Positions 43,993 to 56,314 of a DNA stretch of 64,000 nt are shown in pieces. The DNA is taken from positions 310,001-374,000 of the forward strand of contig NZ_FQUQ01000002.1 in NCBI RefSeq assembly GCF_900129215.1, in the 5' to 3' direction. This DNA comes from Pedobacter caeni. GTDB taxonomy: Bacteria > Bacteroidota > Bacteroidia > Sphingobacteriales > Sphingobacteriaceae. Positions within the stretch are counted from its first letter, which is position 1. Each line of letters opens with the position of its first letter. The notes beneath the pieces are model-generated. The model ran no database searches, had not been told where the DNA came from, and was given only the letters and a program-made list of their open reading frames with translations. The position numbers and the translations under genes are program-made.

Positions 43993-44811
43993 TTACTGAA
44001 CGGTCAATTGCTTTTTACTTACGGTATGTACGCTGAAGTAACCCAGGGCTTTGTTGTTGATGTTTGAAGGCGGGTTTCCGGGAGTAGTTCCGCCAGAGGG
44101 GCCATTTGAGGATTGCTGGCTTAGCGTATACCAATAAAGAAATACGTTTTTATCTATACATTGCATTTCAATATCCACCACATCCCCTGTTCTCAACTGA
44201 TCCTGATCGTCATTATTCCCGGTAAAGAATAATACACTCGGAACATCATTGCCATCGCTCAGGCGGTCATTTTCTGCATATACCTGTTTCGATTGAATCC
44301 CATTCACTTTCATTACAAAACGATATTGATTGGCAATGCCGGCAGGATCTTTATAATGTACCTGGGCCTGTTTCTGATCATCACCACCAAAATTGAAAAC
44401 TTTTACATCCAGGAAATCAATCGCTACCGGAGCAGGCATGCTGGAACTGGCGGTATACACCACATTATTTACGGTGGCCTTAAGCGTATAGGTACGTCCG
44501 GTTTCTCCTTTCAGAGCAGGAAAAGTATAAAACCCGGGAGTCGTTTCAGAAAAGGTCCAGGAATGCCCATTGTCGTCTGTAACAAGAACCACTGCCCCGC
44601 TAACCGGAGGGTAGGTGTTGTTTTCCGTATAAGGTACGGATTTGCTGATTTTGATCAGTTGCTGCCCCGGTTGATCCGTAATGGTGCCTTCTATCACCAG
44701 CTGGCTTTCTGCATTGTCGAGCTTCACATCAATCACCTTTTCACAAGAACTCCATGCGATGGACCCGGTAAAAAGTATGGCTATATATTTAATTTGTTTT
44801 AACATGGTCAT
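43993..44811 (-). CDS. DUF4249 lipoprotein
   Basis: A 272-residue lipoprotein with lipobox-like WSSC (about residue 23), followed by EKVIDVKLDNAESQLVIEGTITDQPG, the usual start of the DUF4249 family. DUF4249 proteins are surface- or periplasm-facing partners encoded next to TonB-dependent receptors in Bacteroidota. The start codon overlaps the receptor stop codon as TAATG, so the two are translationally coupled. A second Met at residue 3 is an alternative start. The substrate is unknown. Confidence 0.88.
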   Translation of the reverse strand: MTMLKQIKYIAILFTGSIAWSSCEKVIDVKLDNAESQLVIEGTITDQPGQQLIKISKSVPYTENNTYPPVSGAVVLVTDDNGHSWTFSETTPGFYTFPALKGETGRTYTLKATVNNVVYTASSSMPAPVAIDFLDVKVFNFGGDDQKQAQVHYKDPAGIANQYRFVMKVNGIQSKQVYAENDRLSDGNDVPSVLFFTGNNDDQDQLRTGDVVDIEMQCIDKNVFLYWYTLSQQSSNGPSGGTTPGNPPSNINNKALGYFSVHTVSKKQLTVQ

Positions 44812-47138
44812 TAGAATTTGAAGTTATAAGTTACAGAAGGGATGATTCCAAAAAGGCTGGTTTGCACAGCTTCCGTGCGGCTCGGATCATTTTCTTTATC
44901 TCTGAACCTGATGGCATAAGGATTTTTAGTATTGAGCACATTGTATATACTGAATGTCCAGCTGCTCTGGAACCTGCGGGTTTCTTTAGCTTTGAGGGTA
45001 GCCCCAATATCCAGTCTTGAAGTATTCGGCATCCGGTTGGCATTTCTATCTGTATAATAGTAGGTAGTCAACCCGCCTACATTATACTTGCCTGCCGGAT
45101 AGGTTACCGCATTTCCGGTATTGAAAATATAGTTGGCAGAAACAGACCAACGTTTGCTAAGATTATACATGGCCACCAATGACAGGTCATGTGTACGGTC
45201 TTGTCTGGCAGGGAAATAAGTTCCCTGGTTGATGCCATCAAACTGCCGTTCGGTTTTTGAAAGCGTATAACTGATCCATCCGGTCAGCCTGCCTTTGGTC
45301 TTTTTTCCATAAAGCTCTACTCCATAAGCACGGCCCTTTCCATATAAGAGGAGTGATTCTACCTCGGCATTAGCCGTCAGATCTGCACCATCTTTATAAT
45401 CGATCTGGTTTTGCAACCATTTGTAATATACCTCTGCAGAAAACTCGTAACCATTGTCTTCCGTGTTTTTAAAATATCCAAGAGCAATCTGATCCCCGAT
45501 TTCGGGTTTGATGTTGTTGCTGCTCATCACATACTGGTCGGTAGGAGCGCTTGTTCCTGAATTACTCAGGATATGAATATTTTGAGTATTACGGTTATAG
45601 GAAGCTTTGATTGAGTTTTTATCATTTAAGGTATAGCTTGCTGAAAAACGGGGCTCCAGGTTGAAATAGTTTTTAACAAACTCTCCACTGCTATACGTTT
45701 TAGATGAAATGACTTCAGCTGCAGGGTTGTAAGTGTTGATTTTTCCCGGGCCGAGCAAGGAAAACTGGCTCAGGCGTAAGCCAATTAACAAATTGAATTT
45801 TTCGCTCAGCTTCCATTCATCGGATACATATGCGCCGAACTCCACACCATAGCGTTTTTCTATAGAAAGGGGATTGATACTGGAATTACCTGAAGCAGTA
45901 ATGTCAGAAGGTGTGATTTGATGATGTGTGCCTTGTAATCCAAATCTTAGCAAGTGGTTGCTGCTGAAGTACTGAAAATCCTGTTTAAAGTTTAAATCCC
46001 TGATGAGCGATTTCACTTTGGCATTGCTTTGTTCATCGATCAGTTCGACGGCATAGCTGTAGCGGTTGTAAATTAAGGAGGTGTTGGAAAATAACCTGTT
46101 GTTAAAAATATGGTTAAAACGCATGGTGGCAGTCGTATTGCCCCAATCGTTGGCAAATAAATCTTTAATTCCAATATTGTCCTGACCAAAATAACCGGAA
46201 AGGTAAAGGGTATTTTTATCATCAAATTTGTAATTCACTTTCGCATTGATGTCATAGAAATTAAGGGTGTTTTTTTTCAAAGCGGAGTCGCCAAAAGCTT
46301 TCAACAGGAGATCGATATAGGTCCTTCTTGCACTGATCATGAAAGAGCTTTTATTTTGGACCAGCGGGCCTTCAGCTTTGATGCGTGAAGCAATGAGGCC
46401 AATACCACCCTCTACACCAAACTTTTTGTCGTTACCGTCCTGCATTTTAACATCCAGTACGGAAGACAAACGGCCTCCATATTGTGCCGGCATCCCACCC
46501 TTATACAGACTCACATCCTTTATTGCGTCGGCATTAAAAGTGGAGAAGAAACCCAGTAAATGCGCAGAATTGTAAACTGTAGCCTCGTCCAGTAAGATCA
46601 GGTTTTGGTCAGCAGCACCACCGCGGACAAAAAATCCGGTATTACCTTCTCCTCCGGATTTTACTCCCGGCAGAAATTGTATAGCTTTCAACACATCCTT
46701 TTCACCCAATAACACAGGTACATTGTCCAGGTCCTTCATATTGATCTTGTTTAAACCCATCTGCGGATTTTTTACATTTTCATTCTTCAGGTCTCCGGCA
46801 CTGATCTGGACTTCCTGTAAGGTGGATGCAGAGGAAAGCGCTACATTGATGGTCAATGCTTTGCTGAGTGAGATTTTTTGGGTTGAAATCTGATAACCAC
46901 TATAACTAACGGTCAGGTTATATTCTCCTGCAGCTGTAGTGATAGAATAGAAGCCATAAGCATTTGTAGCAAGGCCAATGTTTTGAGTCGCGTTTTGCAG
47001 TTTAACGGTTGCCCCGATCAGTGTTTCTCCCGTTGCTCCGTCTTTTACCGTACCGCTTATCGTGATGCGCTGTTGTGCGGATAAAATAAGAGGAAAGGAA
47101 CTGAGAAAACTGAAGAGAAAAATGAATGTTATTTTCAT
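44811..47138 (-). CDS. TonB-dependent receptor with carboxypeptidase-like N-terminal domain
   Basis: An outer-membrane importer of 775 residues. From ATG 47138 it begins MKITFIFLFSFLSSFPLILSA, a signal peptide. Then follow a carboxypeptidase-regulatory-like domain (about 22-105), the plug domain (about 115-220; NTGFFVRGGAADQNLILLDE) and a 22-strand-type beta-barrel ending in Phe (VTYNFKF). It is paired with the DUF4249 lipoprotein. The ATG at 47180 is rejected because it lies in a hairpin arm and would bury the signal peptide. Substrate unknown. Confidence 0.9.
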   Translation of the reverse strand: MKITFIFLFSFLSSFPLILSAQQRITISGTVKDGATGETLIGATVKLQNATQNIGLATNAYGFYSITTAAGEYNLTVSYSGYQISTQKISLSKALTINVALSSASTLQEVQISAGDLKNENVKNPQMGLNKINMKDLDNVPVLLGEKDVLKAIQFLPGVKSGGEGNTGFFVRGGAADQNLILLDEATVYNSAHLLGFFSTFNADAIKDVSLYKGGMPAQYGGRLSSVLDVKMQDGNDKKFGVEGGIGLIASRIKAEGPLVQNKSSFMISARRTYIDLLLKAFGDSALKKNTLNFYDINAKVNYKFDDKNTLYLSGYFGQDNIGIKDLFANDWGNTTATMRFNHIFNNRLFSNTSLIYNRYSYAVELIDEQSNAKVKSLIRDLNFKQDFQYFSSNHLLRFGLQGTHHQITPSDITASGNSSINPLSIEKRYGVEFGAYVSDEWKLSEKFNLLIGLRLSQFSLLGPGKINTYNPAAEVISSKTYSSGEFVKNYFNLEPRFSASYTLNDKNSIKASYNRNTQNIHILSNSGTSAPTDQYVMSSNNIKPEIGDQIALGYFKNTEDNGYEFSAEVYYKWLQNQIDYKDGADLTANAEVESLLLYGKGRAYGVELYGKKTKGRLTGWISYTLSKTERQFDGINQGTYFPARQDRTHDLSLVAMYNLSKRWSVSANYIFNTGNAVTYPAGKYNVGGLTTYYYTDRNANRMPNTSRLDIGATLKAKETRRFQSSWTFSIYNVLNTKNPYAIRFRDKENDPSRTEAVQTSLFGIIPSVTYNFKF

Positions 47139-47180
47139 GCCATTTAGATATTTAATGAGACGAAAATATCTAAACGGCAT
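47137..47180 (-). promoter_or_regulatory. 17-base hairpin overlapping the start codon of the TonB receptor
   Basis: Arms 47137-47153 and 47164-47180 pair over 17 positions with a 10-base loop. The only DNA mismatch becomes a G-U pair in the mRNA of this strand, so the RNA stem is fully paired. The first two bases of the start codon are the base of the stem. No U-run follows, so it is not a normal terminator. It may control translation of the receptor or serve as an operator. Confidence 0.6.
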
Positions 47181-47256: not shown

Positions 47257-48618
47257 TCAGTTCGTTGTCTGAATGGTTAATGGCAAACGCTTAAAACAAC
47301 GATTTAAAATTACCAGTGCAAGAACAATCATGACCATGTCAATCGCTGTACTGCCCCAGTAAATTGCGCTTATTCCAAAATACCCTGGCAAAAAGATCAT
47401 CAGTGGGAAATATAAAAACACCTGTCTGAGCATGGCAATCAATGAAGTTTCCTTTGCTCTTTGTATGGAAGGAAGTGTCACTAAACACATAAATACAATA
47501 GGTAAGAAAGGCAATACTGCCAGATACACCCTGAAATCAACCAGTTGCTGCGGACTGATGACGAAGTTTGGAAGCATACTCAGTATCACCGTGGCCGGGA
47601 AAAAAGTCATAAATAACCAGAAGGGTGCAATGATGCAAAAGCCATAAAAGACAAATAACCAATAGGAACGAATCACTCTGTCGTATTGCCCTGCTCCATA
47701 ATTCATTCCGCTTACCGGCTGTAAAGCACGCATTAGTCCTATGATAGGCATCATCATAAATAAAAGGATTCTGTTACAGACCGTGTAAAAAGGTAAATCG
47801 GCTGATGTTCCGTATCTGGTGACTGCATTTAATACCACTGCACTTTGTACGACTGTCATGATGGTCAATATCATTCCTGGTAAACCGAGTTTCAAGAGCT
47901 CTTTAGCGATAGGTACATCTATTTTCAGGCTGTTCCATTTGCTGATAAAAGAAGATTTTCTCCTGGCAAAATACCATAGGCCAATGACAGAATATAAGAG
48001 CATTCCTGTATTGGTTGCCCATGCTGCACCAGAAACACCCCAACCAAAATTTTTAATAAAGATGGGTTTAAGGATGACGTCCAGTATTAAGCCGAGGGCA
48101 ATCATCCAGGCAGCAGTTTTCATCTTTCCCTCTCCACGGATTACCATGTTCAGGGCAAGGCCATGAATCCAGAACAATGCGCCAATCGTGGTTATCCTGA
48201 AATAAGCAGTCCCATAGGTCAGCACATCGCCTGCACCACCCATTAGACGGACCAGAGGTTCCGCAAGAAGATATAAAGGCAGACAAACGAGCAGAGAGAG
48301 CAGAACGCTCATTCCGTTCACCGTCCCGATTAATTTTTGCAGTTTTTCTTTTTCATTTGCGCCCAGCCAGATGCTCAAAGCTGTTCCTGCACCGGTGCCG
48401 ATCAGGCTGCCCAAACCAAGGGTGATCTGAGCCAGGGGATAAGCGATTCCAACACCTGCTAAAGCTTCTTTATTCATTAAACGACCAACAAAAACGCCAT
48501 CCAGAAAACTATTGAGACCATACAATACCATCGCCAGAACCGAAGGCCAGGAGAGTCTCCATAGGATTGTTTTTAAATTTCCGTTCAGGATAAAATGTTT
48601 TTCTTTTTCGTTCTGCAT
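47257..48618 (-). CDS. MATE-family efflux transporter
   Basis: A 453-residue multidrug or metabolite exporter with 12 predicted helices. The N-terminal half shows WPSVLAMVLYGLNSFLDGVFVGRLM and AGVGIAYPLAQITLGLGSLIGTGAGTALS; the second half repeats the topology. It ends CFKRLPLTIQTTN. It lies upstream of the TonB receptor on the same strand (118-base gap). A fossil of a second MATE gene 3.3 kb downstream carries the same C-terminus. Confidence 0.9.
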   Translation of the reverse strand: MQNEKEKHFILNGNLKTILWRLSWPSVLAMVLYGLNSFLDGVFVGRLMNKEALAGVGIAYPLAQITLGLGSLIGTGAGTALSIWLGANEKEKLQKLIGTVNGMSVLLSLLVCLPLYLLAEPLVRLMGGAGDVLTYGTAYFRITTIGALFWIHGLALNMVIRGEGKMKTAAWMIALGLILDVILKPIFIKNFGWGVSGAAWATNTGMLLYSVIGLWYFARRKSSFISKWNSLKIDVPIAKELLKLGLPGMILTIMTVVQSAVVLNAVTRYGTSADLPFYTVCNRILLFMMMPIIGLMRALQPVSGMNYGAGQYDRVIRSYWLFVFYGFCIIAPFWLFMTFFPATVILSMLPNFVISPQQLVDFRVYLAVLPFLPIVFMCLVTLPSIQRAKETSLIAMLRQVFLYFPLMIFLPGYFGISAIYWGSTAIDMVMIVLALVILNRCFKRLPLTIQTTN

Positions 48619-48682: not shown

Positions 48683-51600
48683 TTATTCCGCTGTGCTTTC
48701 AAAAGTTTTAACCAGCATCGGTTTGTCCTTTCCGGAGACGCTTGTTTTTAACAAATCATAAAATAACCAGGCATTAACTGGTTTCGCTGCATCCTTACTC
48801 TCTTTAAGGAAAGTACTGATGGCCTGATTCATGGCCTGTTCTCCGGTAAGTTTGCTGAGCTTATATAGCGCATCACTTCCTTTCTGACTGGATACATAGC
48901 CCGCATCTTCATCGGATTTGATTAAGACCGGTTCTGTGTTTTGTTCTTTTGCCCTTCCCTTGAGGTAGAGGTCGTGGCTTTTCTCCAGATGTTTTTCAAG
49001 AGAAGCTGCACCGTAGAAATGTTGTAATTGCTGATAAGCCAGGTAGCCGGGAATAGACTGGGTAATCACAGGAAAACCCTGGGTGCGACTGATATTTGCT
49101 TGTTGCATATATTGTTGTGCAATGAGTTTTGCAGTAATATAGCGCAGGTAGTCTAAGTCCTCCTGTCTGCGGATATCCGCGATCCAACCATGGTTTTCAG
49201 GCAGAATAATGAGGTTGCCGCTGGAGAAAAGATCCTGGTCATAACGCGGCCTTTCTGCGATCTTAAGGGTTTGATAAGGATAAGCCCCCAGGGTTTTATT
49301 TAAAAACTGAAGGGCTTCCTTTGCAGATTGCATCAGGTGATTTACATTGTAAGCATGGTCAGGATGGTAAGAGATTTCTATGTTAAGCGTCTTCCCTGCG
49401 ATCTGTATCGTTTCTTTCTTTTGAGCATATTTTGCCGACAGGATATGAAAACTGAAAACATCAGGTTTTTCAGAAACAAACTGATAATGATGACGACCGT
49501 CCCTTTTCCATTCTTTTTTCAATAAACCTGGTGCCACTATCGTCTGATCAGCAGTGGTGCTGATGTTTAAGGTATAATTCATACGATCTGCCTGTGTGGA
49601 TGCAAACGACTGTGTTGCAGCAAGAGGGTCCTTGACTTCCGGCAAACGGGAGCTGATTTTTTTCAGGTCGTTCTCGACCCGGTATTTGTTGAGCTTTAAT
49701 GCTCTTCGGTCATCATAACCAAAATAAGGAATGAGGTCCTGAGAAAGAAATGTTCCGTTGAAGGTTAATTCTTTTTGTGGATCATCATTCGTGAATCCCT
49801 GATAATGCAGGCTCCCCTTGATGTTTAATGTCATTTGATCACCCGGCAGAAGGGGATGGCTCAAAAGATAGCTGTTGTGCCTTAGTTCCTGATCTGCTTT
49901 AACCAGCTTAAGTGTATAACCTGGAATACTGAGCTGGTCAATGACCGAGAAATCCATCCATTCTATGTGTAAGGTGTCTATGGGCTGATGGGTTGGATTG
50001 TTTAATTTTAAACTGCTGTTGTAGGTTAAACTTCTTTTTTCCAGATATAGCTCCAGCTGAAGTTCCAGATTCAGGATTTTTGGCTGAGGAGATGACCGGT
50101 AACGCAGATAGGTCTTTTCATAAAGCGCCTGCTCGTTGCGTTCCTCTGCTTTCGCCTGAAACTTGTTCTCTATATTTACGGTCTGGTAAATGATATGGTG
50201 ACAGTAAAAGAAACCTGCACATCCGAGGACGAAAAGCAATAAAAGAACAGGGCTGAATTTTCCTTTTTTTAATATTCTTTTTCCCAGACCGGAAGGGGTA
50301 CCACGTTGCCATAGCCATAGCCCGATAGAGAAAATCGCAAGGCCGAATGAGGTCCAGTAAGTCATGAACCAGGCATGGGAAAGCGAAAAAATGCCATTGC
50401 CGTTCATGTCTGTATTCATCGCTGATCCGGGTGAGAACATAAAATTCAACCTGTTTTGTTCAATCACTTCTATTTCATGTAAAATCACGCTAATGATGAG
50501 GATCAAAATACTGATCCAGTGTGTGGCATATCGGTTTGCAGTGATTCCGGCCACAAAGACACATAGAAAAATGTAAGTGAGGTATTTGGGAATCCAGCGG
50601 ATAAAGAGGTCGTTGAAGTATACCTCAAGCTCAAAATGATGATAGCCTTTTAAGGCCTGAACGAGCATCCCGAATAACATTAAGCAGGTGGTAACGAGTA
50701 ATGCCACCCCCAGCATTGCCATGATTTTGGAGGTCACAGTAACCCATGTGGGCAGGGGAAGCGCATCGCCAATCTGCCAGAAACCGGTGCTCTGGTTTTT
50801 AAACAGTAATTCTGTTGTATTGATGATGATAAACATCAGAAAATAAAAAGAGAGCGGGAGGGTAACCCCGGTAATTTCAATGGTGACGGGTAGGGTTGGG
50901 GCAGCGGAATAGTATTGTTGCTGCCAGACGGCGATATAACACACATAAATAATCAGCAACATGCCGAGGAAGATCTTAAATCCCAATGGCCTTACTACAC
51001 TCTTAAATTCCAGCCAGGAAAGTGAAAAGGCTTTGCCGATTGCTGAAGAAAGAGAGAAGTGTTGACTGACCTTAGAGAGGGGTTCTGTATGTAAAACAGG
51101 TGTTGTAAGAAGCCGGGGGACATCCTGTATCTTTGTTTTACTTTTACCCTCATTCTTTGCCCCGAACTTATTGAAAGAATATTTTCTTGCAGCAATCAAA
51201 AGAGAAAGCATTCCAATGCTGATCCAGATCAACCTGTTGTAAAACAGATAACCAGAAAAACCCGGTGAATAATTGTTCTTCTGAGCAGGAGAGAAATGCT
51301 CTAACTGGGCATGTAAAACTGAAAAGGCAGTGGGATCAGCCAGGACAACACTGGCATTGTTGTTAAAGGAAGTCTCCGCGAAAATCATCAACAGCATCGC
51401 CGTAAGAGAAATTCCGTAGGCGGTTTTTGCACTCCGCGTAAAAACGGAAACGGAAAAACATAAGCTATAGATCACAAAGATATTGGGTAGAAAAACAAAC
51501 AATACCGCTTTCAGTATCGCATTCCATGATAAGGGACCGAGATTGGCAACAGGAAGATAACTGTATAAAATGATCCCAAGCAGGTAGCCTGCATTTAACA

Positions 51601-51937
51601 ACAGGAGTATGGTGATCGAGCCAAGGTATCTTCCCCAAAAGAAGGACTGCTGACTGGCCCTGGTGGTATAAAGCAGGGAAGAAGTACGGTAATCCAGGTC
51701 TTTGGCAAGTGCCGTTCCTCCCAGAATAGCGGTTACGATGAAGCCGATATAACCGATTCCTGCCAAAACGGTATAGAGGATGGCCGGGGCATTTGCATAG
51801 GTTTTATCCGCACCAAAGAACTCTCCGGTATGCCTCATGTAATAAAGGCCCTGTGCAATCATCAACAATAAGAAAATCCAGGTAAAGGGCTTTTTGAAAT
51901 GTTGCTTCAGCTCGAAACTGAAAATAGTAGAGAACAT
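48683..51937 (-). CDS. ABC transporter permease fused to an inactive M1 peptidase-like domain
   Basis: A 1084-residue membrane protein. The N-terminal half holds two sets of about six helices of ABC-2 permease type (FSFELKQHFKKPFTWIFLLL at the start). The C-terminal ~450 residues follow the M1 aminopeptidase layout (N-terminal beta domain about 630-840, then the catalytic domain with TLKIAERPRYDQDLFSSGNL). The zinc site is lost: KLIAQ (937-941) stands where HExxH should be and Gln960 replaces the third ligand Glu. It pairs with the ATPase encoded 3 bases upstream. Permease-M1 fusions are known in Bacteroidota; this one is probably non-catalytic. Confidence 0.82.
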   Translation of the reverse strand: MFSTIFSFELKQHFKKPFTWIFLLLMIAQGLYYMRHTGEFFGADKTYANAPAILYTVLAGIGYIGFIVTAILGGTALAKDLDYRTSSLLYTTRASQQSFFWGRYLGSITILLLLNAGYLLGIILYSYLPVANLGPLSWNAILKAVLFVFLPNIFVIYSLCFSVSVFTRSAKTAYGISLTAMLLMIFAETSFNNNASVVLADPTAFSVLHAQLEHFSPAQKNNYSPGFSGYLFYNRLIWISIGMLSLLIAARKYSFNKFGAKNEGKSKTKIQDVPRLLTTPVLHTEPLSKVSQHFSLSSAIGKAFSLSWLEFKSVVRPLGFKIFLGMLLIIYVCYIAVWQQQYYSAAPTLPVTIEITGVTLPLSFYFLMFIIINTTELLFKNQSTGFWQIGDALPLPTWVTVTSKIMAMLGVALLVTTCLMLFGMLVQALKGYHHFELEVYFNDLFIRWIPKYLTYIFLCVFVAGITANRYATHWISILILIISVILHEIEVIEQNRLNFMFSPGSAMNTDMNGNGIFSLSHAWFMTYWTSFGLAIFSIGLWLWQRGTPSGLGKRILKKGKFSPVLLLLFVLGCAGFFYCHHIIYQTVNIENKFQAKAEERNEQALYEKTYLRYRSSPQPKILNLELQLELYLEKRSLTYNSSLKLNNPTHQPIDTLHIEWMDFSVIDQLSIPGYTLKLVKADQELRHNSYLLSHPLLPGDQMTLNIKGSLHYQGFTNDDPQKELTFNGTFLSQDLIPYFGYDDRRALKLNKYRVENDLKKISSRLPEVKDPLAATQSFASTQADRMNYTLNISTTADQTIVAPGLLKKEWKRDGRHHYQFVSEKPDVFSFHILSAKYAQKKETIQIAGKTLNIEISYHPDHAYNVNHLMQSAKEALQFLNKTLGAYPYQTLKIAERPRYDQDLFSSGNLIILPENHGWIADIRRQEDLDYLRYITAKLIAQQYMQQANISRTQGFPVITQSIPGYLAYQQLQHFYGAASLEKHLEKSHDLYLKGRAKEQNTEPVLIKSDEDAGYVSSQKGSDALYKLSKLTGEQAMNQAISTFLKESKDAAKPVNAWLFYDLLKTSVSGKDKPMLVKTFESTAE

Positions 51938-51940
51938 ATT

Positions 51941-52828
51941 TTATACGTTTTGCGGGGTGAAATCACTAGCGATCAATTGAAAATAATTGTCTTCCAGGGA
52001 AGGCTTTTTTGGTTCAAAACTTAGGTCCGGAGGCGAATCCGCCAGTACCGTAATGATGAGTTTTCCGGAATGGAAGCGGTTGGAAATGATGTTCATTGCT
52101 TTTTGATAAAACGGGAGTTCCTGTTTCTCAATCTGTTTTTCCCAAAGGCGGCCACTAAGTTCATTTTCTATGTCGGAGGGCTTACCGGATTTGATCACTT
52201 CTCCATTTCCGATGATGGCCATGTCGTTGCAAAGGGTAGAAACATCTTCCACGATGTGGGTGGAGAGGATTACGATGGTGTTTTCTCCGATTTCACTGAG
52301 CAGGTTGTAGAAGCGGTTGCGCTCCAATGGATCGAGACCAGCAGTAGGCTCATCGACAATAATGATTTTTGGGTTGCCAAGTAAAGCCTGGGCAATGCCA
52401 AAGCGTTGCTTCATTCCTCCGGAATAAGTGCTGAGTTTTTTCTTTCGGACCTCATAGAGGTTCACCCTGTGGAGCAATTCATTTACTGATGTTGTTCTTT
52501 CTGCCGCATTGTTCAGTCCTTTCATCTCTGCAATATGATTGAGCATTTCTACTGCGGATACATTGGGGTATACGCCAAAATCCTGGGGAAGGTAGCCCAG
52601 AATTCTACGCATTGCAGCAGGATCCTTTAAGACATCAATATCATCCAGATGGATGCTTCCTGAGTCTGCATCCTGTAAAGTAGCAATCGTTCGCATCAAG
52701 GTTGATTTACCTGCACCATTCTGACCAAGGAGGCCGAACATGCCGGTCCCTATTTGGAGCGACACATTCTTTAAAGCCTGTTTTCCGTTGGAATAGGTTT
52801 TGGTAAGGTTCTCTATATTAAGTTGCAT
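51941..52828 (-). CDS. ABC transporter ATP-binding protein
   Basis: A 295-residue ATPase with Walker A LLGQNGAGKSTLMRTI (about 34-48), Q-loop YLPQDFGVYPNVSA, signature YSGGMKQRFGIAQALLGNP and Walker B IIIVDEPTAGLDPLERNR. A short C-terminal tail of about 75 residues follows. It powers the neighbouring permease-M1 fusion, encoded 3 bases downstream, and is preceded by a TonB receptor with a 39-base gap. Direction of transport is not evident. Confidence 0.93.
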   Translation of the reverse strand: MQLNIENLTKTYSNGKQALKNVSLQIGTGMFGLLGQNGAGKSTLMRTIATLQDADSGSIHLDDIDVLKDPAAMRRILGYLPQDFGVYPNVSAVEMLNHIAEMKGLNNAAERTTSVNELLHRVNLYEVRKKKLSTYSGGMKQRFGIAQALLGNPKIIIVDEPTAGLDPLERNRFYNLLSEIGENTIVILSTHIVEDVSTLCNDMAIIGNGEVIKSGKPSDIENELSGRLWEKQIEKQELPFYQKAMNIISNRFHSGKLIITVLADSPPDLSFEPKKPSLEDNYFQLIASDFTPQNV

Positions 52829-52867: not shown

Positions 52868-55213
52868 TTAGAACCTTACTTTTAGGGAACTTCCGTAAGT
52901 CCTTGGATTGCCGATTAATACCGGGGTAGTTGCTGCGGTTTGAGTGGCGTAAGCAAAAGAAAGATATTTTGCTTCCCCTATGTTTTTGGCCCATAAGCTC
53001 AACTCAAACTTCCTGTATTTAATGCCTGCAGAAATGTTGATCAGGCTGAAAGCATTTTGAGTCAGGTCGTTATAGTAGGTCATGTATTGCTTTCCGAAAT
53101 ATTTCCATTCAGGGATGACATAAAAACTGGTCTGGTCATTTGCATAGTAACGATAGGTGGCAGATAATGAAGAAGTGAAACTTGGAGTGAAAATCTGTTT
53201 GTTGCCAACAAAGTCCTTGTTTTCTGTCTTCGAAACAGGAAGTAGTAGTTTTTCATAACGGGTATGGACCACACCGATATTGTAGTTGACTTCCAGTCCT
53301 TTTACAGGAAGTGCTGTTAATTCAAGTTCTCCACCCTTGTTTGTCAACTCGCCGATGTTGTCTATCAGGTTTTCGGGTACAGTAAGCGTTTGTTGCTGAT
53401 CTTTCCAACGTGTGTAGAAGAGTGCAACATTGGCCCTCAGGCGTTTATCCAGCCATTCTGATTTAAAACCGATTTCATAATTGTTGGTGTATTCGGGTTT
53501 ATAGTTTAACCTGCTGGCATCAAGCGTGTAGGCATTAAATCCACCGGAACGGTAACCACGGGAATAAGTGGCATAAAGCAACAGGTCTGTTTCGGGGTTA
53601 TAGGAAATGCTCAGCTTGGGAGAAAAAGCACCATTATGACCTTTTATTTTTGCTTCAGGCTGATACATCCATGGGTTTGGGGCCTTAAAAAAGCCCTGGA
53701 TATAACTCATGTTTCTCTTTTCGTAATCATACCTCAGACCTGCTGTTAGTTCCCATTGACTACTCAAGGCATAGGAAAGGTTGGTATAGGCCGCAATACC
53801 ATAAATTTTCCGGTCGGTATCTGTCGCCGAATCGTATGGCGGAAGCGGGGCGTTTGGATCTTTTGAGGGTGGCATGTCAGGACCGGTGAGGTAAATGGTA
53901 TTGCCTTCTTTCCGATCTATAAAGCCAAATATGCCTCCTGTGAATTTTAATGCTTTCCTGCTGTCCGTTACGATTTTAAATTCCTGAGTAAGGGTGTTTT
54001 GCGGTGCTCTGGGTACCTCAAATGACATGGCATTGTAGGTGTCATAATCAATATCATAGTCTTTATAGGTATCGCTGAGATAGGTATAGCCTGTTACGGA
54101 AGACAATTCTATACCATTGGTCCGGTATAAGGCTTGCAATGAGGAGGTAACCAATTTTCTTTTCTCCAGGTTTGTTCCGTTCTGATTGATGACATAAGGG
54201 TTTTTCAGGGCTTTTTCTGCTCCTGGAACATAGGGGAAAGCTCCGGGGACATCGTTATGCTCTACCTTTGCATTGAAGGTGAAAGAAAGCTTGTCGCTGG
54301 CCAGATACTTCAGGTAGAAGTTGCCATTATAGGTTTCGGGCCTGTCGAACTTTCTGCCATCATACTGGTTGTGGAAATAGCCTTTACGTGTATCATATAA
54401 ACCTGAGATTCCTGCAAAGAGTTTATCTTTAATCAAGGGGCCGGATAAGCCAATATTGTAGCGTTGAGCGTTGTAATTGCCAATCCCTGCTTCTGCAAAA
54501 CCATGAAAATTATTGTCTGGCTTGCGGGTAATGAGGTTGATGACTCCACCGAGCCCGTTTCTTCCATAAAGTGTGCTTTGTGGACCTCTGAGTACTTCTA
54601 CACGCTCGATATCCTGCATTTGAACACTGGCAGAATAGCCATCAAACATAGGAACTCCATCTATGTAAACTCCAACTACAGGATCCTGAGAAAAGGTCAG
54701 CACGCCACGGATAGACATGATATTGAGCGAAGGAGAGCCGATGTTCATTGACATCAGATTCGGGACTGCGAGAACGAGATCCCCCATTTCCCTGATGTTT
54801 CTTTCCTGAATCTGTTTCCCGCTTAAAGCAGAAACCGCCATTGGTACCTTCTGTAAGAGGTTTTCGCGTTTTTCGGCAGTAACGGTGACTGCATCTAATT
54901 GTATCGGCTGATGTTTACAGTTGATGTCCAGCTGAGCGGTTTCTCCTGCTTTAACGGAAATTTTATAACTTTCAGTATGGTAGCCCATGTGGATGGCAAA
55001 GATGGTATAGCTTCCAGGCATAAGATTGAAAGAAAAGCGGCCGTTTTTGTCACTGCTTCGTTCCAGTTTTAATTCTTTAATTTGTATAATTGCTCCGGCA
55101 ACAGCCTGATTGTCTTCAGTATGGATGTATCCATTGATTTCTCCCCCCTTTTGGGCATTGGCCCGGGATAAACAAAAAATAAATAAGCTGAATACGAGTA
55201 CTTTTTTAATCAT
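52868..55213 (-). CDS. TonB-dependent receptor, siderophore-receptor-like
   Basis: An outer-membrane receptor of 781 residues. The signal peptide ends near SRANAQ. A carboxypeptidase-like N-terminal domain (about 22-110) precedes the plug, which has AVTVTAEKRENLLQKVPMAV, SIRGVLTFSQDPVVGVYIDG and ERVEVLRGPQSTLYGRNGLG. The barrel ends TYGSSLKVRF. The plug wording is that of iron-siderophore or related receptors of the FecA/FhuA-like group. A divergent AraC gene and downstream ABC genes suggest a regulated transport unit. Confidence 0.9.
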   Translation of the reverse strand: MIKKVLVFSLFIFCLSRANAQKGGEINGYIHTEDNQAVAGAIIQIKELKLERSSDKNGRFSFNLMPGSYTIFAIHMGYHTESYKISVKAGETAQLDINCKHQPIQLDAVTVTAEKRENLLQKVPMAVSALSGKQIQERNIREMGDLVLAVPNLMSMNIGSPSLNIMSIRGVLTFSQDPVVGVYIDGVPMFDGYSASVQMQDIERVEVLRGPQSTLYGRNGLGGVINLITRKPDNNFHGFAEAGIGNYNAQRYNIGLSGPLIKDKLFAGISGLYDTRKGYFHNQYDGRKFDRPETYNGNFYLKYLASDKLSFTFNAKVEHNDVPGAFPYVPGAEKALKNPYVINQNGTNLEKRKLVTSSLQALYRTNGIELSSVTGYTYLSDTYKDYDIDYDTYNAMSFEVPRAPQNTLTQEFKIVTDSRKALKFTGGIFGFIDRKEGNTIYLTGPDMPPSKDPNAPLPPYDSATDTDRKIYGIAAYTNLSYALSSQWELTAGLRYDYEKRNMSYIQGFFKAPNPWMYQPEAKIKGHNGAFSPKLSISYNPETDLLLYATYSRGYRSGGFNAYTLDASRLNYKPEYTNNYEIGFKSEWLDKRLRANVALFYTRWKDQQQTLTVPENLIDNIGELTNKGGELELTALPVKGLEVNYNIGVVHTRYEKLLLPVSKTENKDFVGNKQIFTPSFTSSLSATYRYYANDQTSFYVIPEWKYFGKQYMTYYNDLTQNAFSLINISAGIKYRKFELSLWAKNIGEAKYLSFAYATQTAATTPVLIGNPRTYGSSLKVRF

Positions 55214-55217
55214 ATGT

Positions 55218-55262
55218 TTTAGATTGATTCTAAATAAGTGTAGTTTTATGGCGCAAAACTAC
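55218..55262. promoter_or_regulatory. two inverted repeats between the TonB receptor and the AraC gene
   Basis: TTTAGA-5-TCTAAA (55218-55234) and GTAGTTTT-7-AAAACTAC (55240-55262) lie in the 111-base divergent spacer. On the minus strand the second contains TAGTTTTG, a -7-like box about 41 bases before the receptor start, but with no TTG at 20 bases. They are candidate AraC operators. Confidence 0.45.
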
Positions 55263-55324: not shown

Positions 55325-56314
55325 ATGAAGATCACATTGAATTTTTCCGACCTCCAGGATATGACAATGGAGCATGCCTTTCCAGACAACTACCACTATC
55401 TTGGTGAACCGATTGTAGAGCGGACAACCTCGCTGGAATGCTTTGGTGGAACAGGCAGCTACCGGGAGATCTTTTTTGAAGGTGTTCATATTGCATATGG
55501 GGACCTGAGGTTAAAGCAGCAGACGATCCTTAATTTTGAAAGTGATTTTGAAACCGTAGAGATGCATTTTGACCTGTCAGGAAATACGCTGACCAATATT
55601 TCTGGAAGTAATCGCATGCGTTACGAGTTCAATAGCAATCATCATAACATCATTTACGTTCCCGGGATTAAAGGAAACCTGCATTTTAATACCATGAGTA
55701 CCCAGGTGCTGGAAATAAATCTGTCGATCCCGCTGTTTAAGAAGTTCATTGCAGATACGGAGATCTTTACAAACTTTATTCAGGAGATCAATCAGCAGAA
55801 TCCTGCAATGCTGGGGCGGCACAATATGCCGATTACACCGGCAATGGTTTCTCTGATCCGCAGTATGCTGGATTGTAAGAAAGAAGGAATGTATAAAAGA
55901 ATGTACCTGGAAGCTAAGGTTGTAGAGTTGTTGCTGCTCCAACTGGAGCAGTTTGCCTTTCATGATTGCAACTCCTTTTGTTCCTTAAAACCTGCGGACA
56001 TGGAGAAAATGCACCATGCCAGGGACATTATTTTTACCAGGGCAAATGAAGTACATTCCCTGCGCCGGCTGGCACTTGAAATCGGGACCAATGAGTTTAC
56101 GCTCAAAAAAGGCTTCAAAGAAGTGTTCGGGACTACGGTATTTGGAATGTTGAGCGATCTGAAGATGGAAGAGGCAAAACGCCTGTTGTCGGAAGGAGAG
56201 AAGAGCATTTCAGAAATCAGTGAATACGCCGGCTATAAAAATTGCACGCATTTTACCACCGCCTTTAAAAAGAAATATGGAGTTACTCCGGGAAAATATA
56301 AAGTAGAACTTTAA
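55325..56314 (+). CDS. AraC-family transcriptional regulator (PchR-like)
   Basis: A 329-residue regulator. The N-terminal ~220 residues resemble the PchR-type sensor (ECFGGTGSYREIFFEGVHIAYGD), and the C-terminal AraC domain has LRRLALEIGTNEFTLKKGFKEVFG and ISEISEYAGYKNCTHFTTAFKKKYG. PchR-type regulators commonly respond to iron-siderophores and control adjacent receptors. It is divergent from the TonB receptor and probably controls receptor and ABC genes. The link to iron is inferred. Confidence 0.88.
   Translation: MKITLNFSDLQDMTMEHAFPDNYHYLGEPIVERTTSLECFGGTGSYREIFFEGVHIAYGDLRLKQQTILNFESDFETVEMHFDLSGNTLTNISGSNRMRYEFNSNHHNIIYVPGIKGNLHFNTMSTQVLEINLSIPLFKKFIADTEIFTNFIQEINQQNPAMLGRHNMPITPAMVSLIRSMLDCKKEGMYKRMYLEAKVVELLLLQLEQFAFHDCNSFCSLKPADMEKMHHARDIIFTRANEVHSLRRLALEIGTNEFTLKKGFKEVFGTTVFGMLSDLKMEEAKRLLSEGEKSISEISEYAGYKNCTHFTTAFKKKYGVTPGKYKVEL

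Follow-up and report, generated by a model that had tools for sequence, protein, structure and literature searches.

A gene in a 64,000-nucleotide stretch of the Pedobacter caeni genome (contig NZ_FQUQ01000002.1, positions 310,001 to 374,000; hereafter the window) encodes the permease of an ATP-binding cassette (ABC) transporter, fused to a C-terminal domain with the predicted fold of the M1 zinc peptidases. The gene is an intact open reading frame of 1084 amino acids at 48683..51937 on the minus strand. The central point is that this M1 domain has lost all of its catalytic residues, and the sequence makes a strong case that it is catalytically dead. The findings suggest that what was once an enzyme now serves for binding or docking and no longer cuts. 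The explanation that we favour, with moderate confidence, is that the protein belongs to an ABC exporter for metallophore (siderophore) traffic, in which the M1 domain serves as a non-catalytic binding or docking element.

The protein comprises two ABC-2-type half permeases in one chain, one further helix, and the pseudo-M1 domain, all encoded on the minus strand. In the full-length prediction (predicted local distance difference test, pLDDT, 84.9; predicted template modelling score, pTM, 0.81), each half consists of an amphipathic helix and six long helices. The first half spans residues 1-255 (51173..51937) and the second residues 296-541 (50315..51052), with a linker modelled at low confidence between them (residues 262-291). 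A thirteenth predicted membrane helix, residues 563-590 (50168..50251), would lead into the periplasm; its sidedness is taken from the basic stretch that precedes it. The M1 fold starts at about residue 600, after these 13 long predicted helices, and the domain (residues 600-1084; 48686..50140) shows both a beta saddle and a thermolysin-like catalytic part in the model. Predicted alone with AlphaFold2, it reaches a pLDDT of 94.7 and a pTM of 0.94. In the PDB, Foldseek ranks 6koy first (E 6.0e-24), a two-domain M1 peptidase from Deinococcus radiodurans, and VIA-align superposes the domain on Escherichia coli PepN (2dq6) with Z 30.2 and a root-mean-square deviation of 3.2 over 408 aligned residues. 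About 13 ABC-2-type membrane helices followed by a C-terminal M1 fold is also the layout of class TC 3.A.1.145 of the Transporter Classification, and both the model and the full-length alignment of the family conform to it. The helix count and the basic stretch before the last helix place the pseudo-M1 domain probably in the periplasm.

Single-sequence searches reveal little of this. The 1084-residue protein has no match among the Pfam and NCBIfam models, and phmmer with the single M1-like domain finds nothing in the PDB. Among 40 aligned family members, 31 match Peptidase_M1 and 19 match ABC2_membrane_4 (E <= 0.01), while the window protein matches neither. The M1 identity of the C-terminal domain follows from the profile of the family, which matches ERAP2 (E 2.3e-19), together with the predicted fold. 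The family profile also matches PmtD, the permease of a peptide exporter, with E 1.3e-5 over positions 3-219, that is, in the first half. Since all 50 rows listed by a structure search with the full-length model match the M1 part and none the permease, the likeness to PmtD is one of sequence profile only.

The loss of the zinc site is seen when the family alignment of the M1 part is compared with PepN by hhalign (E 4.6e-07). KLIAQ (residues 937-941; 49115..49129, minus strand) falls on HEYFH, Gln960 (49058..49060, minus) stands opposite the Glu of 'LKEG', and Ser1017 (48887..48889, minus) opposite the Tyr of 'YEKG'; in PepN we take these two to be the third zinc ligand and the catalytic Tyr. 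The window protein thus has KLIAQ and Gln960 in place of the HExxH motif and downstream Glu of M1 enzymes, and Ser1017 in place of the Tyr before KG. The zinc peptidase site of the TC 3.A.1.145 class is accordingly absent from it.

The comparison set consists of 115 full-length, deduplicated rows from a fetched sample that is rich in the window protein's own family; it was drawn from search matches with a fetched locus, and identical rows and open frames shorter than 900 amino acids (pieces of L008, L009 and L091) were set aside. In 88 of these rows His, Glu and His stand in the expected motif columns, with Glu at column 960 in 100% and Tyr at column 1017 in 99% of the 88. Because the normal site occupies identical columns in so many relatives, it must have been lost in the window protein. 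The other 27 rows are zinc-less; 8 belong to the clade of the window protein and 19 to a second group. The eight clade rows (window, L088, L004, L005, L089, L090, L006 and L092) all have a dead site. They carry K/R/R/R/K/Q/S/R, L/L/K/K/L/L/L/E and Q/Q/E/E/E/E/Q/K at the three motif positions, Q/Q/N/N/K/K/N/V in the third-ligand column and S/N/E/E/N/D/N/E in the Tyr column. All five catalytic positions are therefore replaced throughout the clade, the Glu at the second motif position of L092 being the sole exception.

An initial annotation, made from the sequence of the window, had described an ABC permease with a periplasmic M1 domain of preserved layout, in which HExxH had become KLIAQ and the third ligand Gln. 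The two fused halves, the extra helix, the predicted fold and the superposition on an active M1 enzyme bear out the architecture and the layout, and the periplasmic exposure is likewise supported as probable. The substitutions are confirmed by both alignments, and were slightly understated, as the catalytic Tyr is also replaced. The same annotation had proposed a survey of homologues and had allowed that the true zinc site might lie elsewhere; the 88 rows with a normal site in those very columns speak against this.

The GxMEN exopeptidase motif is also missing. It is replaced by LFSS in the window protein, where the Glu of PepN falls on Ser905, and by FAQS in the zinc-bearing relatives; as these too lack the Glu, even they need not be ordinary aminopeptidases. 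E914, in the sequence PENHGW, was considered as a retained amino-terminus-binding Glu and was rejected, since HMMER and hhalign comparisons with ERAP2 and PepN put GxMEN on LFSS. A short C-terminus was likewise discarded as a mark of dead members, given that zinc-bearing L107 and L141 also have about 1097 residues. The same genome contains a paralogue (L128, C11:749449-752520) with an intact HETAH motif, 27% identical to the window protein; it comes with an ATPase of its own and, farther on, with what look by eye like two-component genes, and offers a built-in active control.

In principle, the domain could still be an enzyme, with a different metal site or a different chemistry. Some His, Asp and Glu residues are indeed invariant in the clade, among them H657, H687, H858 and H916, which in the alignment lie outside the positions conserved in more than 80% of the zinc-bearing rows. 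The old ligand columns, however, vary within the clade, and E607, E854, H861, E895, E914, D929 and E1002 are common to the zinc-bearing rows and hence not new; we regard continued catalysis as quite improbable.

Trees were built from thinned sets of 51, 36 and 24 rows (23 with one left out). The tree of the permease part (51 rows) contains two changes between zinc states, both forced by well-supported branches, and the clade of the window protein represents one old loss of zinc. The second zinc-less group, with 19 rows, is independent of it and comes from one other genus (g14) of the same family. Its members (L100, L108-L122, L124, L125 and L032) are longer, at about 1215 residues, and 18 of the 19 keep the third Glu (counted by eye). 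At the two loci viewed, L100 and L108, the neighbours of the gene in its array are a second ABC system and a short, GntR-like gene (names assigned by eye).

The zinc-less state is held under purifying selection. The copy of the permease in Pedobacter sp. KBW06 is 89% identical to that of the window, and the ratio of non-synonymous to synonymous substitution rates (dN/dS) between the two is 0.061 for the whole protein, 0.051 for the permease and 0.060 for the M1-like part; with dS at 0.8-1.3 these ratios are rough. The gene is also unbroken in 8 of the 10 clade loci (the window, L003, L004, L005, L006, L008, L089, L090, L091 and L092). The two broken copies, that of L008 split over several frames and that of L091 with a TAG codon and a gap, reflect decay or assembly error, and could be taken to mean that the gene is decaying and functionless. 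Given the low dN/dS over the whole length and the pattern of substitution, such decay is very improbable.

Within the domain, dN/dS is 0.047 for the catalytic-like half and 0.073 for the beta saddle. The most conserved blocks of 12 residues (seven clade rows) are 912-923, with a fraction of 0.75 invariant, and 888-899, with 0.67; these flank the stretch that aligns with GxMEN. The block on the old zinc helix, 936-947, is only 0.25 invariant in the same rows. These figures bear on a further explanation, in which the M1 domain survives as a structural or docking remnant: while the pump went on exporting its old cargo, the fold would only prop up the complex or bind a partner protein, for instance the TonB receptor or a periplasmic adaptor. 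Zinc-bearing members share many of the domain's invariant positions, which may be structural, and the beta saddle is under constraint similar to that of the rest. Against this stand the lower dN/dS of the catalytic-like half and the location of the most conserved blocks around the GxMEN stretch. On balance a mere remnant appears somewhat unlikely, and a domain retained for binding or docking in metallophore export remains the explanation that we prefer.

The surroundings of the gene point to its likely context. The partner ABC ATPase (51941..52828, minus strand; PF00005, 9.1e-31) ends 3 bases before the permease gene and is of the GldA/DrrA/ABCA-like type; its best NCBIfam match is GldA, below the cut-off of that model, and its best PDB rows are ABCA-type, with NosF lower. 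Next to it lies a FyuA-like TonB-dependent receptor (52868..55213, minus; Pfam plug and barrel), followed by a divergent AraC-type regulator (55325..56314, plus; HTH_18, 1.4e-19). A TonB receptor adjoins the ATPase-permease pair in all 10 clade loci; in L092 one small DoxX/MauE-like gene stands between receptor and ATPase, and in L091 the receptor is in two pieces. In the nine other loci the receptor is 30-88% and the ATPase 66-93% identical to that of the window, and all nine have an AraC-type gene.

Control loci behave differently. These are 55 fetched stretches of 17-20 kb (L093-L147), 18 of them from the second dead group. The ATPase is present in 55 of 55 (some 4 kb off in L143), and a TonB receptor beside the pair in none. 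Such a receptor is not lacking altogether: a profile search (E <= 1e-4) finds a TonB-like frame elsewhere in the stretch in 16 of the 55, the closest lying 1.4 to 6.4 kb away from the permease gene. By BLAST (E <= 1e-10 with the window receptor), a receptor is found in 3 of the 55 (L104, L113 and L132), and an AraC-type gene in 0 of 55. A claim that control loci have no TonB receptor at all was therefore dropped, and the contrast holds for position only. The position of the receptor thus goes with the clade of the window protein and not with zinc loss as such, since the second dead group is without it.

There is a good case for a siderophore link of the clade operon. The best PDB match of the window receptor is the FyuA/pesticin receptor (4epa; 2e-35), FyuA being the receptor for pesticin and yersiniabactin; the operon thus includes the receptor type of the FyuA/YbtPQ system. 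A siderophore-interacting flavoprotein (SIP) is encoded in L090 and L092, and paired ABC half-transporters in L006 and L090. Two half-transporters, one from L090 and one from Zymomonas, have as their best PDB match among size-matched chains 6p6i_A, followed by IrtA; 6p6i_A is probably YbtP, being the partner of YbtQ in 8vsi. The genome of the window also contains, elsewhere, a half-transporter pair, one half of which is 57% identical to that of L090, and four PF08021 matches.

Relatives outside the Bacteroidota show similar associations. A tblastn search of plasmid records returned 24 records, including Zymomonas (14), Pseudoalteromonas (2) and others; eight plasmid stretches were fetched, two of them from the same Zymomonas plasmid, and the Proteobacterial data consist of plasmid records. 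The Zymomonas protein is 22% identical to that of the window and has REIGR in place of HExxH; its gene row contains a TonB receptor, two half-transporters, an ATPase and the zinc-less permease. This row is borne on the Zymomonas mobilis plasmid pZMOB03 (L170/L172). The Pseudoalteromonas protein (L174) has DAVAQ instead, and its neighbours are an NAD_binding_4 (thioester-reductase-like) gene, a thioesterase, Peripla_BP_2, FecCD, two ATPases and a TonB receptor with, again, FyuA as best PDB match (8.8e-38). At 12847-15857 of L174, two reductase-like genes (Sacchrp_dh_NADP; one with a weak ATC_hydrolase match) lie beside the receptor and perhaps serve chelator synthesis or tailoring. The two proteins align with the family M1 profile with E 1.5e-27 (Zymomonas) and 6.4e-42 (Pseudoalteromonas). 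The zinc motif is kept in the copies from Granulicella (L171), Spirosoma (L176) and Hymenobacter swuensis (L177); those from Sphingomonas (L173) and Hymenobacter qilianensis (L175), which are spread over several frames, were left out of the alignment.

Trees place the zinc-less Zymomonas and Pseudoalteromonas rows next to the clade of the window protein with moderate support: 90 in the 36-row tree, 95 with 24 rows, and 97 for the M1 part with the motif columns removed, falling to 81 without Zymomonas and to 50 without Pseudoalteromonas. A single zinc loss covering the clade and the Proteobacterial rows is likely, as judged from these trees. In its widest form, this leads to the tentative idea of a metallophore exporter that crosses phyla, in which one loss of zinc would have given rise to a dedicated domain for chelator binding or hand-off between the ABC pump and the TonB receptor; given the independent loss in the second genus, in another ABC setting, the conversion of fused peptidases to binding domains would be recurrent in the class.

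How might such a system work? ABC-2 permeases with GldA/DrrA-type ATPases are exporters, and for many chelators the route out of the cell is not known. The 1084-residue protein would form the membrane part of an exporter of the ABC-2/M1 class, paired with the neighbouring ATPase. The TonB receptor would take the metal-loaded chelator into the periplasm, from where an importer encoded nearby or elsewhere would carry it onward. The ABC-2 pump would most likely send the chelator out again, either for recycling or, in producers, for secretion. The zinc-less M1 domain, suspended by a single helix where the pump opens to the periplasm, may hold the chelator, pass it on or dock a partner, with no cutting involved. 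Since the pump travels together with a chelator receptor, and once with nonribosomal-synthesis-like genes, it is most simply seen as a chelator exporter or recycler. The initial annotation had instead proposed a peptide receptor serving the transporter. The export direction of GldA/DrrA-type systems and the match to the peptide exporter PmtD lend no support to a receptor for uptake, and the gene context favours a metallophore over peptides in general.

Several points weigh against metallophore export. The window receptor scores 194.4 bits with TIGR01783, below the cut-off of 223.5, and TonB receptors carry many ligands. SIP genes and intact importer pairs each occur in only 2 of the 10 clade loci, and beside the window gene neither a siderophore importer nor a SIP gene is seen. 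By summed PDB score, the half-transporters come closest to P-glycoprotein-type exporters and not to importers. Aerobactin-type synthesis was considered and rejected, the window genome having no IucA/IucC match. The second zinc-less group has no adjoining receptor, and zinc loss therefore needs no metallophore. The AraC-like gene is not special to the clade, as a profile finds one in 7 of the 55 control loci, within 0.5 kb in two. The join with the Proteobacterial rows is one of two long branches meeting. Regulatory signals give no help either: no Fur-like box stood out in the 10 upstream stretches by the E. coli consensus, the best match in each being equalled by at least 11 of 200 shuffles, and TTTAGA-N5-TCTAAA has 6 sites genome-wide against 4 for the control, which is no clear enrichment, and no regulon is claimed. 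Ligand, cargo and export direction are what we infer.

A related possibility is that the operon, together with a MATE efflux transporter, forms a detoxifying or immunity pump. This would expel a toxic compound, peptide-like or sideromycin-like, that comes in through the TonB receptor, and the dead domain would capture it. A MATE gene (47257..48618, same strand as the permease and downstream of it; TIGR00797 above cut-off) does adjoin the permease gene in the window, and also in L003 and L008. The PmtD match and the arrays of the second dead group, which we take to resemble YtrA operons, fit this idea as well. Its weakness lies in the fixed place of the pump beside a FyuA-like receptor and, at several loci, also beside importers or a flavin reductase; we judge it unlikely, and continue to favour export of a metallophore.

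If this is correct, peptide cutting is dispensable in this clade and a metallophore is its likely cargo. A clade that has given up the enzyme, yet still has the pump at a constant position next to a TonB receptor, would give a handle on the cargo, and would add a periplasmic pseudopeptidase to the list of parts involved in siderophore traffic.

ABC-2/M1 fusion transporters as such are common in Bacteroidota; the window protein is matched in 97 of 395 genomes sampled across the phylum (E <= 0.001, partial M1-only matches included). Members of the zinc-less clade are rarer (E <= 1e-140). Within the window's genus they occur in 2 of 145 genomes, within genus g16 in 2 of 93, and within the family of G523 in 1 of 92, the last being the 34% relative L092. 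In 395 genomes of the class the window's own copy is the sole clade member, the two other matches being zinc-bearing. The nearest kin of the Pedobacter copies are found in two metagenome-assembled genomes titled Chitinophagaceae and Sphingobacteriales rather than in g16, and for this reason it is likely that the cassette has moved between families.

Further features lie close by. Just upstream of the receptor start there is a palindrome, TTTAGATTGATTCTAAA (55218..55234), and inspection by eye shows similar forms ahead of several receptors of the clade. The MATE gene is followed, directly downstream, by a second TonB receptor and a DUF4249 protein (43993-47180), an order also seen in L003; L006 has a MATE gene, 40% identical, about 4.6 kb upstream. 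Several clade loci also have a methyltransferase gene, of the LCM type or of class I, near the operon (L004 11379-12209, L005 11400-12233, L008 13453-14121 and L090 17292-17963, the last two 71% identical).

A literature search that covered few subscription papers found no report of a zinc-less member of the ABC-2/M1 class or of its link to siderophore loci, and no tested function for such fusion transporters. Individual parts have well-known counterparts. The M1 enzymes of D. radiodurans (6a8z, 6koy) and PepN (2dq6) share the fold of the C-terminal domain, but are zinc enzymes; PepN also has the GxMEN Glu, which the window protein's family, zinc-bearing members included, lacks. PmtD, the permease of the phenol-soluble modulin exporter (6xjh, 9q1y), is of the same ABC-2 half-permease type, but is a single half of about 250 residues without a fused domain. 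The FyuA/YbtPQ system for yersiniabactin uptake resembles the clade loci in its receptor and, in L090, L006 and Zymomonas, in the half-transporter pair; to our knowledge, it has no ABC-2/pseudo-M1 pump.

The fusion itself is already known from TC 3.A.1.145, an ABC-2 permease with a C-terminal M1 peptidase, with Myxococcus xanthus Q1D520 as its example. In this class (PMC3924187), as in the window protein, a single chain of about 1100-1200 residues combines 13 ABC-2 membrane segments with a C-terminal M1 domain. The same source describes the domain as a zinc-dependent aminopeptidase, and it is by this description that Q1D520 is set apart. In the window protein the zinc ligands, the motif Glu and the Tyr are all gone, and the gene stands with a TonB receptor. 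Pseudopeptidases are known in many families. For M1, a review (PMC11266112) names Tma108, a yeast M1-family protein with a proposed non-enzymatic role. The likeness is that the old substrate pocket is proposed to serve for binding; the difference is that Tma108, according to the review, has lost only one of its active-site residues, and that it works at the ribosome and is not part of a transporter.

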